Source: Acidimicrobiales bacterium
GTDB lineage: Bacteria; Actinomycetota; Acidimicrobiia; Acidimicrobiales; RAAP-2
Assembly (NCBI GenBank): GCA_025449805.1
Contig: JANWIR010000091.1
Location: 1 to 36,185, forward strand
Length of the DNA stretch: 36,185 bases
Reading direction: 5' to 3'
Shown in pieces: positions 7,034 to 32,315 of the stretch (its first letter is position 1; every line of letters starts with the position of its first letter). The notes below the pieces were generated by a model. The model saw only the letters and a list, made by a program, of their open reading frames with translations. It was not told where the DNA came from and ran no database searches. Made by a program: the position numbers and the translations under genes.

Positions 7034-7402
<369 letters not shown>

Positions 7403-23585: not shown

Positions 23586-24926
23586 TTACTTCAGCCAGGC
23601 CGGAATCGAGGGTGCAACGGCCTTGGTGTTCACGACGGGGCCCGAGCCCGAGTCCGTCGTGTAGACCTGACCGTTGAGCGCGGTCGTCGCCGAGGCACTG
23701 GTCACGGTGACGAGGTAACCGCCACTGAGACCCTGGTGGTTCGTTGGCGTGTACGTAAGTGGCGTGAGTGCCGGCGTCTGCTTCAAGGTGAGGTGCGTCA
23801 GCGTCTTTAAGAAGCTCGCGCGCGTCACGTTCTTACCGGTCGCCTTCAGCGTTTCCACGAACGCGACGGCAAATCCGATGCCGTAGGCCATGTTGCCCGT
23901 AATGGGTGAGGTAGCCGTGAAGTTCGGGAAGTCCGTCTTGTCCGCCAGCAGCACCTTGCGGTCCCACGCGTTCCACGCGTTCTTCGACGTCGAGGCGGGC
24001 AGGTAGCTGAAACTCACGGCGCCGATTTCAGGGTCAGGAATCGGGAGGCTCGCGAAGGGTGCGTCCACGGTGACCGGGTCCGAACCGACACTGGAGATGA
24101 TCCAGTGCGGCGAGTAGCCCATCTTGAGCGCAGCGCCGAGCGTCGCGTCCGTGGCACCGGGAATCGTGTCGAGCACGACCACGGTGCACTTGTCACTCTG
24201 GAAACGCGCGACGTAGGGCGCGATCGAGGCACCTTGGGTGACGACCAACGCACCGACGCTGTAGAGCTGCTCGTCGATTGGTGTGACACCACCGGCTACG
24301 AGGCCCGCAAGGCCGTCCGCACCGAAGTCATCGCCCTGTCCGAGGTAGCAGACGTTGTCCTTGGGGTACGTCGCCGCAATGTACTTCGCGAAGATCTTGC
24401 CTTCCTCGTTGTACGAGGACTGCCATCCAAAGAGGCCCGGGTACTTCGTCGGGTTGTTCCAGTCACGCGAACCGGAGTTCACGTACAACTGAGGCACGTG
24501 GTTCGCGTTCAGCAGTGTGCGCACCGAGTCCTGCGTCGGCGTACCGAGCGAGCCCACGGTCGCGAAGATTCCCGCCGACAAGAGCGCGCGCGTCTGGGTG
24601 GCTGTGTTGGGTGTACCCGTGCAGCCAAAGCCCGGCGTGCCGTAGCAGTCGTCCTTACGGAGGTACTTGATCTTTCGACCGTTTACGCCGCCTTTGCTAT
24701 TGACGTAATTGAAGACAGCGTTCGCCGCCTTCGACACGTCGCTATAGCCCGACGACGCGATACCGGTCAGTGGCACGGTCGCGCCGATGGTGATCTGCTT
24801 GGCGGTCACGCCCGGCGTCTTAGGTGAGGCACCCGCGAGCCCCGACGTACCGAACGTCATGACCCCCGCGCACAACATCATCGCGACACCGGCGCTTAGC
24901 CGACGACTTGATTTCTTTTGACTCAC
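23586..24926 (-). CDS. Branched-chain amino-acid-type ABC transporter substrate-binding protein
   Basis: Signal peptide, ITIGATVPLTGIASSGYSDVSKAANAVFNYVNSKGGVNGRKIKYLRKDDCY (Peripla_BP_6). Confidence 0.9.
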   Translation of the reverse strand: MSQKKSSRRLSAGVAMMLCAGVMTFGTSGLAGASPKTPGVTAKQITIGATVPLTGIASSGYSDVSKAANAVFNYVNSKGGVNGRKIKYLRKDDCYGTPGFGCTGTPNTATQTRALLSAGIFATVGSLGTPTQDSVRTLLNANHVPQLYVNSGSRDWNNPTKYPGLFGWQSSYNEEGKIFAKYIAATYPKDNVCYLGQGDDFGADGLAGLVAGGVTPIDEQLYSVGALVVTQGASIAPYVARFQSDKCTVVVLDTIPGATDATLGAALKMGYSPHWIISSVGSDPVTVDAPFASLPIPDPEIGAVSFSYLPASTSKNAWNAWDRKVLLADKTDFPNFTATSPITGNMAYGIGFAVAFVETLKATGKNVTRASFLKTLTHLTLKQTPALTPLTYTPTNHQGLSGGYLVTVTSASATTALNGQVYTTDSGSGPVVNTKAVAPSIPAWLK

Positions 24927-24967
24927 TTAATTTTCCCCCTGGAATATTGGAACTGCTCTGGTACCGC

Positions 24968-26203
24968 TCACGCCTCAGCGTAGGTCTCCTTAGGTGGTGA
25001 CGCAACGTCGCCCCTCTTCGACGCGCGTTGGCGACGCAACGTGTAGTACACGCCCGCCACGCCACGCGGCGCGAGCATCATCGTCACGATGAGTAGCCCA
25101 CCGAAGATGATGCCGTTGAGTTGACTGGCAAAGTTGCCCTGAGGATTTAGACCGGTCTGGTTCGTGATCCAGTTGATGACGTTGGTGGAGTAGGCGTAAA
25201 CGAGCCCACCGATCAACGCCCCCGGAATAGTGCCGATGCCGCCAATCACGATGACCGAGAGAATAACGATAGAGAGCGCGAACGAGTAGGTCGCGGGCGT
25301 CACCGAATTATTGAGGAAGGTCCATAGCGCCCCACCGAGTGCGGCGTACGCCGAGGAGATCACGAAGGCCAACACGCGCGTCCGGTTTAGATTGACGCCC
25401 ACCAGTTCGGCCGCTACCTCGTTGTCGCGCACCAAGCGCATGGCGCGACCCACACGACTCGAAAAGAGATTCGCCATGAAAAAGAACGCGACGCCGGCCG
25501 CGACGATGGTGATATCGGTCAACCACAGAGTGCTTGACGTCAACGACGACGTGCCGTGCACGAAGAGGGCATTTAACCAGTGCGGAGGGTTGGCGGCGTT
25601 CGGGAGTTGGAGACCACCGTCACCACCGGTCCAGGAGTTGAAGTAGGTCAAGATTGCGGGAAACGCGACGGCGAAGGCGAGCGTCATGCCCGCCAGATAC
25701 GGTCCGCGTAGACGCGTGGCGGGTAGACCGAGCAAGAAACCCACGAGGGCGCCGGCGACGACCGACAGCAGAAGCGTCACCGCGATGGGGGTCGTGGCGT
25801 GATGGTTCGACCAGATGGCCATCGTGAACGCGCCCACGCCCATAAAAGCGCCGTTACCGATCGACACCTGACCCGAGACGCCGGTAAGGAATGAAAGCCC
25901 CACCAACGTCACGGCCATGGCGGCGCCCGTGGCCAAATTGAAGTCCGTCGTCGATGAGAAGAAGAAGGTCGCCACCAGCGTCACCGAAACGACCATGGTC
26001 GAGGTGGCCGCCCGAGTCAGGACCGGGCGCGCGCGTCGCAGTTCCGAAGGAAGAAGGATCAACGCGCTCGTAACCGTCAACATCATCAAGATTGCTAGGG
26101 CGACGCCGTCACGAACGCTGGGAGTGACGAGTAAGGAGAGCACCGCGACGGCGATCACGATACCCGCCGCGCTGAGACCTCGTGGTGAGCGTTGACGGTT
26201 CAT
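24968..26203 (-). CDS. Branched-chain amino-acid ABC transporter permease (LivM-like)
   Basis: GQVSIGNGAFMGVGAF, LRGPYLAGMTLAFAVAFP, RVGRAMRLVRDNEVAAELVGVNL, IGGIGTIPGALIGGLV. Confidence 0.92.
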   Translation of the reverse strand: MNRQRSPRGLSAAGIVIAVAVLSLLVTPSVRDGVALAILMMLTVTSALILLPSELRRARPVLTRAATSTMVVSVTLVATFFFSSTTDFNLATGAAMAVTLVGLSFLTGVSGQVSIGNGAFMGVGAFTMAIWSNHHATTPIAVTLLLSVVAGALVGFLLGLPATRLRGPYLAGMTLAFAVAFPAILTYFNSWTGGDGGLQLPNAANPPHWLNALFVHGTSSLTSSTLWLTDITIVAAGVAFFFMANLFSSRVGRAMRLVRDNEVAAELVGVNLNRTRVLAFVISSAYAALGGALWTFLNNSVTPATYSFALSIVILSVIVIGGIGTIPGALIGGLVYAYSTNVINWITNQTGLNPQGNFASQLNGIIFGGLLIVTMMLAPRGVAGVYYTLRRQRASKRGDVASPPKETYAEA

Positions 26204-27102
26204 ACTCGCCTCGTTTTCACGGGACTGAAGACCCCATTGGGCCGGGCCATCAGTGAGACGATCAAGATGGCGAGGGCGACCAGAATGATGGCGTTGGAGT
26301 TCACGTAGTCACCCACAAACTGCAAAATGATGCCCATCACGATGCCCGCGACGATCGAACCCACGGGACTATCCAGTCCACCCACCGCCGCGGCAATAAA
26401 GCCGAAGGCGAAGATACCGTCCATCACCTGCGGCGTGAGGCCGGTGAAAAAGTTCGACGCCACCAAGATTGCGGTGATGGTCCCTACGCCGGTGGAGAGC
26501 GTCCAACCCAAAGTCAGCATGCGGTTGACGCGCACACCCAAGAGGCGCGAGACCTCCGGGGCCAGTGCCGACGCTCGCAGCTGCAGGCCGAGATTCGTGA
26601 AGCGAAAGAGTACGGCCACCGCCACCATGACGACGACGGCGGTGATGATCTGGTACAGCGAAAAGGCTGAAAGCGCGAACGGTTTGCCACTCAGATGAAA
26701 GTCGATGGGCGAAAACGGTGTCGTCAAACTGCGCGGCGTCGACGACCAGATGGCCGCGGCCACTGCTTCGAGCACGGTCAAAAAGCCCACCATCACCACT
26801 ACGGGGTTGATTTCTGGTTTGCCGTAGAGGGGGCGAACCAGGACGCGTTCGGTACCGGCACCAATAAGGAACCCCACGAGAACGGCGATGACCACGCAGA
26901 TCCAGTAGCCGAAGTAGTGCCCGAACGTGACCATGCCCACGTACGTCGCCAACATGGGCATCGCGCCTTGGGCGAAGTTCAAGATGCCCGTCGAACGCCA
27001 GACCAAGACGAGACTGAGGGCAACGAGGCCATAAATCACGCCGTTCGTTAAACCACCCAGTACGTCCGACGCGATCCTTGACGTGAGAAAAACGTCCATC
27101 AA
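26200..27102 (-). CDS. Branched-chain amino-acid ABC transporter permease (LivH-like)
   Basis: GLTNGVIYGLVALSLVLVWRSTGILNFAQGAMPMLATYV, GGLDSPVGSIVAGIVMGI. Confidence 0.92.
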   Translation of the reverse strand: MMDVFLTSRIASDVLGGLTNGVIYGLVALSLVLVWRSTGILNFAQGAMPMLATYVGMVTFGHYFGYWICVVIAVLVGFLIGAGTERVLVRPLYGKPEINPVVVMVGFLTVLEAVAAAIWSSTPRSLTTPFSPIDFHLSGKPFALSAFSLYQIITAVVVMVAVAVLFRFTNLGLQLRASALAPEVSRLLGVRVNRMLTLGWTLSTGVGTITAILVASNFFTGLTPQVMDGIFAFGFIAAAVGGLDSPVGSIVAGIVMGIILQFVGDYVNSNAIILVALAILIVSLMARPNGVFSPVKTRRV

Positions 27103-27806
27103 CGCACCATTCCAAGGTAGTACTGACGAAGCTTTTCATCCTCCGCGACCACGCTCGCGACGTCGTTCGCGACAACGTGTCCGACGTTCAAGACCACGGC
27201 GTGGTCCGCGATGCGCAAAGCCGACGAGGCGTTTTGCTCCACCAATATCACGGTGAGATTCTCGCTCGCGCATAATTCTTTGATGGTCGCCATGATCTGA
27301 GCCGTGATGAGTGGCGCCAAACCGAGCGACGGTTCATCCAGCAACAACACCGCGGGGTTGGCGATGAGGGCCCGGGCCATCGAAAGAATTTGACGCTCGC
27401 CACCCGAGAGTTGATCCGCGTGTTGACGGCGTCGTTCACCCAAAATGGGAAAGCGCTCGTACTGACTCGCGAGACTCTGTTTGGCGTCGACTTTGGCCGT
27501 CAGGGCACCGAGGCGAAGGTTTTCCTCGACCGTGAATTCGCCAATCACGCCGCGACCCTCGGGCACGTGCGCGATGCCCATACGGGCAATATCTTCGGTT
27601 TTCATGAGGGTCAGTTCGGCCCCGTCGTGCGTGATCGAGCCCGCCACGGGCGACTTCAGGCCACTGATCGTTCGAAGCAACGTTGTTTTCCCCGCGCCGT
27701 TCGCCCCGAGCACGGCGGTGATCGCGCTCGTGCGCGCCTCGAAGGTCACGTCGACGAGTGCCTTCACCGCGCCGTAGGCGACGGTCAAATCTTGGACCCG
27801 AATCAC
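27099..27806 (-). CDS. ABC transporter ATP-binding protein (LivF-like)
   Basis: LGANGAGKTTLLRTISGL, GIAHVPEGRGVIGEFTVEENL, LSGGERQILSMARALIANPAVLLLDEPSLGLAP. Confidence 0.93.
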   Translation of the reverse strand: MIRVQDLTVAYGAVKALVDVTFEARTSAITAVLGANGAGKTTLLRTISGLKSPVAGSITHDGAELTLMKTEDIARMGIAHVPEGRGVIGEFTVEENLRLGALTAKVDAKQSLASQYERFPILGERRRQHADQLSGGERQILSMARALIANPAVLLLDEPSLGLAPLITAQIMATIKELCASENLTVILVEQNASSALRIADHAVVLNVGHVVANDVASVVAEDEKLRQYYLGMVR

Positions 27807-28579
27807 TGCGCCACCCCTAGGTAGGCCGCGACGACGGCGTCATTGTTGCGAACCTCACCGGGCGTACCTTCGGCGATGACCTCGCCAAAGTTGAGGACAA
27901 CGAGTCGCTCCACGAGGGGCATGACGAATTCCATATTGTGCTCGACGAGCAACACGCCCATACTCGAACGAAGATCGAGAATCATTGCGGCGAACTCACT
28001 CAACTCTGCTTCGTCGAGGCCCGACGCCGGCTCATCGAGCATGAGCAATCGTGGTTCGCTCATCAGCGCCCGGGCCACGGAGACTTTCTTCGCGATGCCG
28101 TAGGGAATGGACGAAGGGAGCTCACTGGCCACGTCCGCCACCCCCAGTCGCGCCAAAACGTTCATCGCGTCGTCGCGCAAGCGTCGTTCGGCGCGGATTC
28201 CCCGAGGGGAGGCAACAAAACTATTCAGAAAGCCGCCGTCGGGACGCGTTTGACCACCCGCCATTACGTTTTCGAGCACGGTGCAGTGCGTAAAGAGACC
28301 CACACCTTGCAGCGTGCGCGCGATGCCGGCGCGCGAGAGTTGATTCGGACGCAAGTTGGATTTCTGAATTAAGGGATAGTGCACCGCCCCCGCCGTGGGC
28401 TTGACGAACCCGCAGGCAACGTTGAAGGCCGTTGTCTTGCCCGCACCGTTTGGTCCGATCAAGCCAACGATTTCACCCGTAGCCACACCGAAGGAAATGT
28501 CGTGTAAGGCGCGCAGGCCACCGAAGTCCACCGACACGCCCTCGAGCGCGAGGATTGGCTGTCCGGAACCGTCACTCAC
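27803..28579 (-). CDS. ABC transporter ATP-binding protein (LivG-like)
   Basis: VDFGGLRALHDISFGVATGEIVGLIGPNGAGKTTAFNVACGF, ARTLQGVGLF, ARALMSEPRLLMLDEPASGLDEAE. Confidence 0.92.
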   Translation of the reverse strand: MSDGSGQPILALEGVSVDFGGLRALHDISFGVATGEIVGLIGPNGAGKTTAFNVACGFVKPTAGAVHYPLIQKSNLRPNQLSRAGIARTLQGVGLFTHCTVLENVMAGGQTRPDGGFLNSFVASPRGIRAERRLRDDAMNVLARLGVADVASELPSSIPYGIAKKVSVARALMSEPRLLMLDEPASGLDEAELSEFAAMILDLRSSMGVLLVEHNMEFVMPLVERLVVLNFGEVIAEGTPGEVRNNDAVVAAYLGVAQ

Positions 28580-28688: not shown

Positions 28689-29483
28689 CTAGACCGTCCC
28701 GTAGGCGACGGGCCCACTGGAGGGCGCCGTCGAGCCACCCGAAGGCTCCACCGTCACGGCCAACTCACTCGGTTTTACCTGACCCGCCATGGTGAAGGCG
28801 ACCTGCGTGGGGTGCTGTCCCATAACGCCGAGCGAGACCGGCTGCCCCTTGACGATGCCCCAGAGTTGGTAGGTCTTGTCACCCGACAGCTTCGGCAACG
28901 TCGACATCACTAAGTAGCCCTGGCCACTGGGCAACATGACGAACTGCGCGAGTGGTTGGTGCGTCGCCGACGCGAGATTGACGATCAAGTGTCCCGGTGT
29001 CTCGAGGGCTGAGGCGACCGCGATCTGGCCACCGTTCGAGATCTGGCCCTGCAGGTGCGCGACGTGACTATTGGCGTTGGCCAAGCTGACACTCAAGGCG
29101 ATTATTGCCGCGGCAGCACCGAACGCGGCCGAGGCGACGGCGCCACGGGCCCGGCGCGTCCACGACGGACGTCCGGTGGTAATCGAAATGACCGGCGCGA
29201 CGCCGGGGGTCGTCGACGAGCGGTCGCCGCCCAACACGGGCATGGCGGTACTCGTCGCGGCGGGGCGCTCGTGAAGGCGGTCAGCAATGGAGCTCCACAG
29301 CCGCTCCGGCAAGGGTTCAACGGTGTTACCGATTGTCGCGGCGACCTGGCGGTAGGCGTCGAGCTCGCGCTGACAGGGCGCACAGCCGCTGACGTGCTCT
29401 TCGAGGGCCACCGCGGTGGGTGCGTCAATGGCGTCCAGTGCGGCAAGTTCTAAAAGATCGTAGGCATCTTCGTGGTTCATCAC
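28689..29483 (-). CDS. Anti-sigma factor, RskA-like (zinc-finger N-terminus, single TM)
   Basis: LEEHVSGCAPCQREL (HxxxCxxC), one TM, C-terminal LPKLSGDKTYQLWGIVKGQPVSLGVM RskA domain; overlaps sigma gene. Confidence 0.88.
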   Translation of the reverse strand: MMNHEDAYDLLELAALDAIDAPTAVALEEHVSGCAPCQRELDAYRQVAATIGNTVEPLPERLWSSIADRLHERPAATSTAMPVLGGDRSSTTPGVAPVISITTGRPSWTRRARGAVASAAFGAAAAIIALSVSLANANSHVAHLQGQISNGGQIAVASALETPGHLIVNLASATHQPLAQFVMLPSGQGYLVMSTLPKLSGDKTYQLWGIVKGQPVSLGVMGQHPTQVAFTMAGQVKPSELAVTVEPSGGSTAPSSGPVAYGTV

Positions 29484-30055
29484 GACTCCACTTCTTGTAC
29501 TTCGTAGTCCGAGAGCAGGTGGCGCATGCGACGCATGCCATTGCGAATCCGGCTCTTAATGGTTCCCTCTGGTTCGTCCAGTAGTTCGGCGACTTTGACG
29601 TAGGTCAGCCCTTGGAAGTAGGCCAATTCAATCGCGCGACGTTCGTCCTCGGGTAGTTCGCCGAGCGCTCGCTGTATCTCTTCACTCATTATGAGATCGG
29701 AAAATTCGTGTTCGAGGTCGTAGCCGGCTCGGGCCGTCGCGGCGGCGTCGCGCACTTCGCGACCCTTACGAGCCTCGAGTGAACGCACGGCGTCGACCGC
29801 GCGCGCGTGGCTTTGGGTTAAGAGGAAGCTGCGGAGGTTGCCGCGGTTGGGGTCGAAGCGCTCGGGTTGATTCCACAGACGCAGGAACACCTCTTGGGTA
29901 ACGTCCTCAGCCTCAGTGTTGTTGTTGAGGACGCGTCGAGCCAGGCCGTACACCGCGCCACCGTGACGGCGATAGACCTCGGCGAGGGCCACGTCGTCGT
30001 AGCGCGCAATGCGCGTTACCAGCTGTGCGTCGCTGACGTCTTGGAGTGCTTCCAC
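29480..30055 (-). CDS. ECF RNA polymerase sigma factor, SigK-like (ORF open to 30142; proposed start GTG 30055)
   Basis: DVALAEVYRRHGGAVYGLARRVLNNNTEAEDVTQEVFLRLWNQPERFD and EDERRAIELAYFQGLTYVKVAELLDEPEGTIKSRIRNGMRRMRHLL; start chosen from the predicted promoter just upstream. Confidence 0.85.
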   Translation of the reverse strand: MEALQDVSDAQLVTRIARYDDVALAEVYRRHGGAVYGLARRVLNNNTEAEDVTQEVFLRLWNQPERFDPNRGNLRSFLLTQSHARAVDAVRSLEARKGREVRDAAATARAGYDLEHEFSDLIMSEEIQRALGELPEDERRAIELAYFQGLTYVKVAELLDEPEGTIKSRIRNGMRRMRHLLSDYEVQEVES

Positions 30056-30062
30056 GTCTTCT

Positions 30063-30089
30063 ATTCGGGGCGACCTTTCCTCTGGATGT
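30063..30089 (-). promoter_or_regulatory. Candidate SigK-type autoregulatory promoter ACATCC-N15-CCGAAT, 7 nt before GTG 30055
   Basis: Minus strand gACATCC-agaggaaaggtcgcc-CCGAAT-agaagac-GTG; same architecture as the opposing promoter at 30139. Confidence 0.55.
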
Positions 30090-30138
30090 CGAATTCTCCA
30101 CTTTTTTAATCCGGCGTCAAAACTTTTTCCAAATTGCG

Positions 30139-30165
30139 TCATCCGTCACCATTGCGGCGCCGAAT
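30139..30165 (+). promoter_or_regulatory. Candidate SigK-type promoter TCATCC-N15-CCGAAT for the ferritin-like/cupredoxin operon
   Basis: gTCATCC-gtcaccattgcggcg-CCGAAT about 33 nt upstream of ATG 30198. Confidence 0.6.
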
Positions 30166-30197
30166 ACCTCATGACCCTACCCAAGGAGGAACAGGCA

Positions 30198-31058
30198 ATG
30201 AACCCAGATCCCAGAGCACTCGCGGAGTTGCTCGAAGAGTCACAGGACCTGCAGGCGGACGCGTTGCGTCCGACCAACGAGGCCCTCGATGAACTCGTCG
30301 AGTTGAACCACGAGTCGTCCCAGGAAGACCCCACCACCAACGAGAGCTTCCACGAAGAGCACCAGGCCACGTTGTTGACCAGCCTTCGTAACGCGCCGTT
30401 GTTGGGCGCCGCGGGCGGTCTCGCCCTGGTCGGTGCGCTCGCCACGTCGGCGGCGGCCACCAGCTCCAAGGACGTCCAGATTCTCCAGACGGCCGCGAGC
30501 ATCGAGAACCTGGCGGTCGCGACGTACAAGGCGGCCCTCGCGCTGCCCTACATCGGTGGCGCCTCGGCCAACGGTGTTGTCACGGCCTTCGCGAAGACCA
30601 CGATGGGTCAGCACGCCGAGCACGCGGCCGCCTTCAACGCCGCCGTTCGCCGTCTGAAGGGCCGCCCCCAGACCAAGCCCGACCCGGCGTTCGTACCGGT
30701 CGTCAACAAGGCCGTCGCCAGCTTGAAGGGCATGAGCGACGCAAACGCGACGCTCGCCGTCGTGGGCCTCGCCCTCGAACTCGAGAACATTGCTGCGGAG
30801 ACCTACGTCAAGAACACGTCACTCGTGAACGCGACGTCGAACCGTGCCCTGTTCGCGAGCATCATGGGCGTCGAGGCCCAGCACGTCAGCGTGCTCCTCG
30901 CCGTTCAGGCACTCTTGAGCGCCGGCGCCCCGCAGTTGATCGCCCTCAGCCCCACGACCGTCAACTCGTTGCCGGCCGTAGCCGGCAAGGTCGGATTCCC
31001 CAACCCGTTTTACAAGACCAACAGTGCTGCACCCGCTAGCCAAGGAGCTGTGAAGTAA
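30198..31058 (+). CDS. Ferritin-like domain protein (paralog A)
   Basis: AAGGAGG SD at 30183 and ATG 30198; four-helix pattern ASIENLAVATYKAAL / GQHAEHAAAFN / LALELENIAAETYV / GVEAQHVSVLLAV. Confidence 0.82.
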   Translation: MNPDPRALAELLEESQDLQADALRPTNEALDELVELNHESSQEDPTTNESFHEEHQATLLTSLRNAPLLGAAGGLALVGALATSAAATSSKDVQILQTAASIENLAVATYKAALALPYIGGASANGVVTAFAKTTMGQHAEHAAAFNAAVRRLKGRPQTKPDPAFVPVVNKAVASLKGMSDANATLAVVGLALELENIAAETYVKNTSLVNATSNRALFASIMGVEAQHVSVLLAVQALLSAGAPQLIALSPTTVNSLPAVAGKVGFPNPFYKTNSAAPASQGAVK

Positions 31059-31885
31059 TGAACGCCAACGACCACATCCAAAACTCTGGTGCCTTTCAGG
31101 GCACCGAGCGCGAAATCACCGCGATGACGCGTGAACTCGACGAACTGCACAACGACGTGGGTATGCCCGCGATGTGGCAGGGCGTCGAGCGCATGGTCGA
31201 AGGTCTGCGCAGTGGTGCCTCCAAGAACGCGGCTAGTCGTCGTACGTTCTTGATGGGCGCGGGCGCGACTCTCGCCGGCGGAGCCGCGCTGATCGGCGCG
31301 GGACTTCCCTCCATGGCTGGTGCGGCCACGCGTACCACCAAGTCGTCGAGCGCCTCGGCGTTGGCCTTCCCCCCGGCCAACTTGAAGGGTGACCTCGTCG
31401 TCGCGGCCGTCGCGGCCAGCCTGGAGAACCTCGCGGTCTTCGCCTACACGGCGGGACTGGGCGCGGCCACGGCCGGCAAGCTCGGCTCCGTGCCCCCGGC
31501 CGTTGCCACGTTCGCCACGACGGCGCGCGCGCAACACGCCCAGCACGCCGCCGCGTGGAACGCGGTCCTGCGCGCGAACGGTAAGGCCAAGGTCACCGTC
31601 ACCAACCCAACCTTGACCCCCGTCGTGAAGAGCGACTTCGCCAAGGTCACGGACATCACGGGACTGGCCAAGTTGGCGCTCACCCTCGAGACCATCGCCG
31701 CCGAGACCTACCAGGTCGAGACGTCGAAGTTGATGAGCAAGGCCGCCATCGAGCTGTCCGCCAGCATCGAGCCCGTCGAGATGCAGCACATCGCGATTCT
31801 GTACTACGTGCTGGGTATGTACCCGGGCGCGCAGAGTGCGAGTGGCACGCCCTTGGCCTTCAGCGCCACGAACCAAGCGGTATAG
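31058..31885 (+). CDS. Ferritin-like domain protein (paralog B) with Tat signal
   Basis: SRRTFLMGAGATLAGGAALIGAG twin-arginine signal; ASLENLAVFAYTAGL / AQHAQHAAAWN / LTLETIAAETYQ / PVEMQHIAILYYV parallel to paralog A. Confidence 0.85.
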   Translation: MNANDHIQNSGAFQGTEREITAMTRELDELHNDVGMPAMWQGVERMVEGLRSGASKNAASRRTFLMGAGATLAGGAALIGAGLPSMAGAATRTTKSSSASALAFPPANLKGDLVVAAVAASLENLAVFAYTAGLGAATAGKLGSVPPAVATFATTARAQHAQHAAAWNAVLRANGKAKVTVTNPTLTPVVKSDFAKVTDITGLAKLALTLETIAAETYQVETSKLMSKAAIELSASIEPVEMQHIAILYYVLGMYPGAQSASGTPLAFSATNQAV

Positions 31886-31887
31886 CA

Positions 31888-32253
31888 ATGGCTCGGCGTC
31901 ACGTATCACGAGTGGCCGCCACGATGGCCGCGGGACTCATGATGAGTTTCGCGGCCATCGCGCCGAGCGTCACGGCCGCGTCAGCGTCGGGCGCGCCGGC
32001 GGTCGTCCACGTCAAAATCGTGAACTTCATGTTCGCGCCAATGACTATCAAGGCGCACCCGGGCGAACTGATCCAGGTCACGAATAAGGACACGGTGGCG
32101 CACACGCTCACCTCGACCAAGCCCAAGCAGTTCACGACCGGCAACATCGGTCACAATCAGACCAAGGGCTTTCGGGCCCCGAAAAAGCCGGGCACGTATC
32201 ACTTCATCTGCTTCATCCACCAATTCATGACGGGAACCCTCGTCGTCAAGTAG
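31888..32253 (+). CDS. Secreted cupredoxin (type 1 copper, amicyanin/plastocyanin-like)
   Basis: Signal peptide; VKIVNFMFAPMTIKAHPGELIQVTNKDTVAHTLTS...GTYHFICFIHQFMTGTLVVK with His and C-x2-H-x2-M ligand set. Confidence 0.88.
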   Translation: MARRHVSRVAATMAAGLMMSFAAIAPSVTAASASGAPAVVHVKIVNFMFAPMTIKAHPGELIQVTNKDTVAHTLTSTKPKQFTTGNIGHNQTKGFRAPKKPGTYHFICFIHQFMTGTLVVK

Positions 32254-32272
32254 CAGCTGAAGACGTGCCTTT

Positions 32273-32315
32273 GCGCCCCGCCCTAGCCCACCCTGGGGCG
32301 GGGCGCCCCCTTTTT
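32273..32315 (+). terminator. Intrinsic terminator of the ferritin-like/cupredoxin operon
   Basis: gcgccccgccc...gggcggggcgc stem followed by cccc-ttttt. Confidence 0.85.

Follow-up and report, generated by a model that had tools for sequence, protein, structure and literature searches.

A SigK-like sigma factor and its RskA-type anti-sigma factor are predicted to control an operon for two ferritin-like proteins and a secreted cupredoxin in an Acidimicrobiales bacterium

The SigK/RskA system of Mycobacterium tuberculosis (sigK-rskA, mpt70/mpt83), which belongs to the ECF18/ECF19 type of extracytoplasmic function (ECF) sigma factors, is the closest described relative of the locus reported here, and its initiating signal is stated to be unknown (PMC7509140). 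SigK has a redox cysteine pair, C133/C183, and such a pair is found in 94% of ECF18 members and 56% of ECF19 members (PMC7509140), so it is not obligatory for SigK/RskA-type systems. Cysteine-less SigK is more often paired with an absent or altered RskA (PMC7509140). Here, we describe a locus at positions 28,689 to 32,315 of the window, by which we mean the whole 36,185-nucleotide stretch that was analyzed (contig JANWIR010000091.1, Acidimicrobiales bacterium). In it, a SigK-like sigma factor and an RskA-type anti-sigma factor are encoded divergently from the genes for two paralogous ferritin-like proteins, FerA and FerB, and a cupredoxin. Judged from the DNA, it is highly probable that the SigK-like pair controls this ferritin-cupredoxin operon. 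The features of the locus are as follows.

28689..29483, minus strand: RskA-type anti-sigma factor, 264 amino acids (Pfam, NCBIfam, hydropathy, motif)
29480..30055, minus strand: SigK-like ECF sigma factor, 191 amino acids from GTG 30055 (Pfam, NCBIfam, PDB, alignment of relatives)
30063..30088, minus strand: predicted sigma-directed promoter of sigma-rskA, CATCC-N15-CCGAAT (kept in 15/15 divergent loci)
30140..30165, plus strand: predicted sigma-directed promoter of the ferritin-cupredoxin operon, CATCC-N15-CCGAAT (kept in 15/15 divergent loci)
30198..31058, plus strand: FerA, Ferritin_2 protein, 286 amino acids (Pfam, alignment, model)
31058..31885, plus strand: FerB, Ferritin_2 protein, 275 amino acids (Pfam, alignment, model)
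31888..32253, plus strand: secreted cupredoxin, 121 amino acids (Cupredoxin_1, 1.8e-12; ligands kept in relatives)
32273..32306, plus strand: intrinsic terminator, with a 14-pair stem (12 G-C), a 6-base loop and then CCCCTTTTTA (T-run)

A first-pass annotation of this DNA had proposed an ECF sigma gene overlapping that of an RskA-type anti-sigma factor, a divergent operon for two paralogous ferritin-like proteins and a secreted type 1 copper protein, and a strong terminator closing the operon. All five genes and the terminator were found at or near the positions it gave, and the assignments are supported by Pfam matches to RskA_C and to Sigma70_r2 and r4 in the regulatory pair, whose genes share 4 bases, to Ferritin_2 in both paralogs and to Cupredoxin_1 in the copper protein. 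The FerA stop codon is overlapped by the FerB start codon and the gap from the FerB stop to the cupredoxin ATG is two bases, so the three genes most likely form one operon. The bare count of terminator-like sites (5) is not above that in shuffles (4.3), and the terminator behind the cupredoxin gene is by far the longest of them. As for gene starts, GTG 30055 is almost certainly that of the sigma factor since this column is Met or Val in almost every relative; the longer listed open reading frame from ATG 30142 was rejected because the conserved promoter falls inside it. A FerA start at 30009 was likewise rejected, ATG 30198 being preceded by AAGGAGG.

The two regulators have the hallmarks of a SigK/RskA-type pair, as had been proposed. 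The best solved relative of the sigma factor is M. tuberculosis SigK (PDB 4NQW), at 111 bits compared with 61 for the next. SigK is also its top NCBIfam match, at 166 bits; since this is under the NCBI cut-off of 226, we call the protein SigK-like rather than SigK proper. The adjoining anti-sigma factor matches RskA_C (7.6e-20, 72 bits, cut-off 29.4) and NCBIfam NF052375 (118 bits, cut-off 100), with a weak zf-HC2 match. It exhibits an N-terminal HxxxCxxC (ZAS) motif and one transmembrane segment at residues ~112-137, as predicted by hydropathy, followed by the extracytoplasmic RskA_C domain. The sigma factor has no cysteine, as is the case in 13/15 relatives, and when it is aligned with 4NQW, Ser and Ala occupy the positions of the redox cysteines. 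A redox switch as in M. tuberculosis therefore cannot be assumed here. RskA is nevertheless full length beside this cysteine-less sigma factor.

The evidence that carries the control circuit comes from the 142 bases between the sigma and FerA starts, which contain CATCC-N15-CCGAAT on each strand. The −10 element of the sigma-rskA site ends 7 bases ahead of the GTG start, and the operon site ends 32 bases ahead of the FerA start. Both predicted promoters, as CATCC-N15/16-[CAT]CGAA, are present in 15/15 divergent loci, window included, whereas only about 0.002 such sites are expected per 160 bases. On the operon side, pairwise identity between loci is 100% for the −35 element and 85% for the −10 element, compared with 42% for the spacer. 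Since the sigma start codon sits 7-9 bases past the −10 element in most loci, a leaderless sigma mRNA is predicted. When spacers of 14-16 were allowed, the genome from which the window comes (1.36 Mb, 75.9% complete) had three exact sites, i.e., the two divergent ones and one on contig C5 within a Pup deamidase/ligase-like coding gene, and the reversed pattern used as control had no match in it. A looser motif, GWCATCCG-N12-15-CGAA, proved too frequent across 61 genomes to define regulons; in the window's own genome it adds one match, inside a histidine-kinase gene.

The sigma pair might be a chance or passive neighbor that regulates only itself, with the ferritin operon under another regulator. 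Five genus members that have the sigma factor but no ferritin genes fit this idea, two of them with a DUF4331 gene beside the pair, as do some outgroup ferritin operons without an adjacent sigma gene. However, in four loci (L005, L011, L152, and L209; related loci are cited by our own handles) the operon is unlinked from the sigma gene and the site still precedes it, with 0/100 shuffles scoring as high. This is the strongest sequence argument that the operon is a target of the sigma factor and not just its neighbor. Furthermore, the site faces both ways in every divergent locus. Co-occurrence, in relatives that are mostly metagenome-assembled genomes, also argues against a passive neighbor. 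Among 37 genomes of the genus, the sigma factor is present in 10/10 with FerB vs. 5/27 without it (Fisher 9e-6, i.e., p about 1e-5), and RskA in 10/10 vs. 6/27. A synteny search had been suggested with the original proposal, and it thus found the sigma pair and the ferritin/cupredoxin genes co-conserved. Taking site conservation, unlinked sites and co-occurrence together, we dropped coincidental neighborhood, which we consider very improbable, and retain control of the operon by the SigK-like pair.

The order RskA-Sigma / FerA-FerB-cupredoxin is that of the close relatives (about 14 loci), and synteny reaches beyond them (e.g., L208, L159, L019, L021, L160, L162, L220, and L028). In more distant relatives within the order, class and phylum the arrangement differs, in that the cupredoxin comes first (L019, L021, and L208), the genes lie on a single strand (L162 and L028) or the paralogs are divergent (L158, L160, and L220). 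In a phylum-wide sample, the FerA family was found in 2/377 genomes, with at most six candidates per genome scored.

Other genes recur around these loci. In four order members (L167, L171, L172, and L174), cupredoxin genes lie near a SigK-like/RskA pair, with no ferritin-like gene in the fetched stretch. DUF4331 (PF14224) genes recur in the neighborhood of the sigma pair or of the ferritin operon, at L146:6392-7774 (+), L148:3599-4795 (−), L011:3000-4544, L024:1-1464 and L157:5708-7402. L146 and L148 are the two genus members with the sigma factor, a nearby DUF4331 gene and no ferritin genes; in L148 the DUF4331 gene is broken across several frames.

As for the output of the circuit, FerA and FerB match Pfam Ferritin_2 (PF13668) at 1e-14 and 1.7e-15, respectively, about 30 bits over the family cut-off. 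Of the two family labels given earlier, DUF4439/Ferritin_2, only the latter stands, DUF4439 having no sequence match. In the four-helix core of FerA, E103, H139, H142, E196, E226, and H229 are invariant, as are E123, H160, H163, E211, E241, and H244 in that of FerB. This E / HxxH / E / ExxH set, invariant in 23 FerB and 20 FerA sequences, amounts to three Glu and three His per site. It departs from the canonical E, ExxH, E, ExxH set at helix 2, in which both paralogs have an invariant (Q)HxxH instead of the ExxH of canonical diiron sites. The structural models find fold matches that belong nearly all to the ferritin superfamily, including bacterioferritins and Dps-like proteins, and a PDB sequence search with FerB gave no useful match. 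The cupredoxin has the complete type 1 copper ligands, His...Cys-x2-His-x2-Met, conserved in aligned relatives.

We favor the view that FerA and FerB oxidize a metal or scavenge an oxidant, with the cupredoxin as electron carrier, although we hold this redox step only tentatively and at somewhat less than even odds. Its main rival keeps the same regulation and makes metal buffering or detoxification the output, FerA and FerB sequestering iron or another metal outside the membrane and the cupredoxin binding copper, with no catalytic electron transfer. The bacterioferritin and Dps-like fold matches are in line with this, as is a gene for a VIT-family iron/manganese transporter directly 3' of the cupredoxin gene in one locus (L005:7224-7925, +). 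However, the VIT gene occurs in that locus only, the cupredoxin retains its full redox ligand set, and exported paralogs with conserved six-ligand sites fit catalysis as well as storage; we consider buffering somewhat unlikely. Alternatively, the pair could serve the envelope in a structural or stress-protective way, like Ferritin_2/desiccation-related proteins, and its metal site would then be structural. The Pfam family is indeed Ferritin_2, to which the desiccation-related protein PCC13-62 of plants belongs. PF13668 and PCC13-62 are mentioned together in PMC11616004. This reading is hard to reconcile with a copper redox protein being co-expressed and with all six metal ligands being invariant, and it appears unlikely.

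Export of the operon's products is best supported for FerB. Its Tat motif, SRRTFLMG (residues 60-67), has the twin arginine in 23/23 FerB sequences, and the outgroup FerB is a predicted Tat lipoprotein (LAAC). FerB is thus the ferritin-like protein to which the clear Tat signal reported in the first-pass annotation belongs. FerA has a hydrophobic segment at ~66-86 that ends in AxA, without a twin arginine in the window; the twin arginine is also missing in many relatives and present in several outgroups. Tat signals on both proteins were rejected on the grounds that FerA lacks this motif. Unusually for signal peptides, a conserved helix is predicted ahead of the signal in both, at residues 17-50 of FerB (pLDDT about 93-95) and 5-37 of FerA (pLDDT about 60-73). 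FerA probably rides with FerB through export.

In seven loci (L011, L016, L020, L021, L028, L161, and L209), genes for TatC, usually with TatA/B, adjoin the ferritin pair, far above chance since one TatC per genome is usual. TatA-like genes alone do so in a few other loci; in all, Tat neighbors are seen in about ten genomes other than that of the window. The window has no linked Tat gene, and the single TatC found in its genome is on another contig. In L011 (L011:1-1779), tatA and tatBC diverge and each has a CATCC-N16-CCGAA site ahead of it, as would be expected if the sigma regulon included the Tat translocase. In L161 (genome G041), the tatC beside the FerA-FerB pair is a second one, another lying elsewhere in the genome (G041:C13:188855-189487), and may belong to a dedicated Tat translocase.

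Together, these findings suggest that the locus is a self-contained envelope-response module. The transmembrane RskA-type anti-sigma factor would hold the SigK-like sigma factor until, we infer, an extracytoplasmic signal frees it through RskA proteolysis by an S2P/Rip1-type protease, by analogy with M. tuberculosis. The freed sigma factor would recognize CATCC-N15-CCGAAT on both strands of the divergent region, transcribing its own gene pair from a leaderless mRNA in a positive feedback and the FerA-FerB-cupredoxin operon. FerB would leave via Tat, and FerA most likely as a hitchhiker or through a weak export signal that it carries itself. Once beyond the membrane, FerA and FerB, each with a six-ligand di-metal site, would most probably oxidize a metal, e.g., Fe(II), or eliminate an oxidant, with electrons then passed on by the type 1 copper protein that is co-expressed with them. 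We assign this whole explanation, control circuit and redox step blended, a probability of roughly 0.7. The interpretation that we started from is thus strongly supported in its membrane-linked sigma control (co-occurrence, synteny, matching promoters both ways, SigK likeness); its extracellular di-metal/copper redox output, which fits the invariant ligands and the export signals, is at present what we infer. Going further, the pre-signal helices of FerA and FerB might bind each other for co-export, the Tat translocase of some lineages might be under the same sigma factor, and the 3-Glu/3-His pair might be wired to the copper protein as a new extracytoplasmic metal oxidase or oxidant scavenger, but that all of this holds jointly is rather doubtful.

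Several points weigh against this explanation. The loci are related by descent, so their counts are not independent events. Two outgroup operons without an adjacent sigma gene (L017 and L018) have no recognizable site, nor does L208, which is syntenic. Finally, the fold matches have weak E-values, the best being 1.2 for FerB and 0.04 for FerA.

Adjoining rskA, at 23586-28579 (−), is by inspection a branched-chain amino-acid type ABC transporter operon for a binding protein, two permeases and two ATPases, whose ATPase genes are kept beside rskA only in L003 among related loci. That contig is titled Acidobacteriota, and its proteins are ~95% identical to those of the window; the taxon label is probably wrong. 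A class A bacterial RNase P RNA lies at 7040-7400 (+), with 248.5 bits.

Our literature search on ECF sigma factors with ferritin-like proteins and cupredoxin, DUF4331 and Tat found no prior description, and, as far as the searched literature shows, a tandem ferritin-like/cupredoxin unit accompanied by recurrent Tat genes has not been described before. The locus offers a SigK-like pair with a clear metal/redox-type output and a two-unit regulon legible from DNA alone, and its naturally cysteine-less sigma factor with a full-length RskA makes a clean comparative system. It also points to extracytoplasmic metal or oxidant stress as a candidate signal class for SigK/RskA-type systems.

How does the locus compare with known systems? 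Substrate-linked Tat translocases exist, e.g., Bacillus TatAyCy beside ywbN/efeB, and in several relatives Tat genes similarly adjoin those of Tat-exported metalloproteins; the SigK-type sites ahead of the Tat genes in L011 are a difference, as is the absence of a linked Tat gene in the window. FerA and FerB, while both above the Ferritin_2 cut-off, differ from that family in being a conserved tandem pair with HxxH on helix 2 and in having a conserved pre-signal helix of ~40-60 residues that precedes the secretory/Tat segment. To M. tuberculosis SigK/RskA the likeness is greatest, in a sigma factor closest to 4NQW, an adjoining full-length anti-sigma factor with one transmembrane segment and an RskA_C domain, a two-part site resembling that of SigK (CCATCC...CCGAAT), and a regulon of secreted proteins for which autoregulation is suggested here. 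In contrast, both redox cysteines are missing and the output is a ferritin-like pair plus a cupredoxin, with no match to Fasciclin (the MPT70/83-type output) in the available 75.9% of the genome. We regard the locus as a new form of SigK/RskA-type system, one without a fasciclin output and built around a SigK-like, cysteine-less sigma factor.

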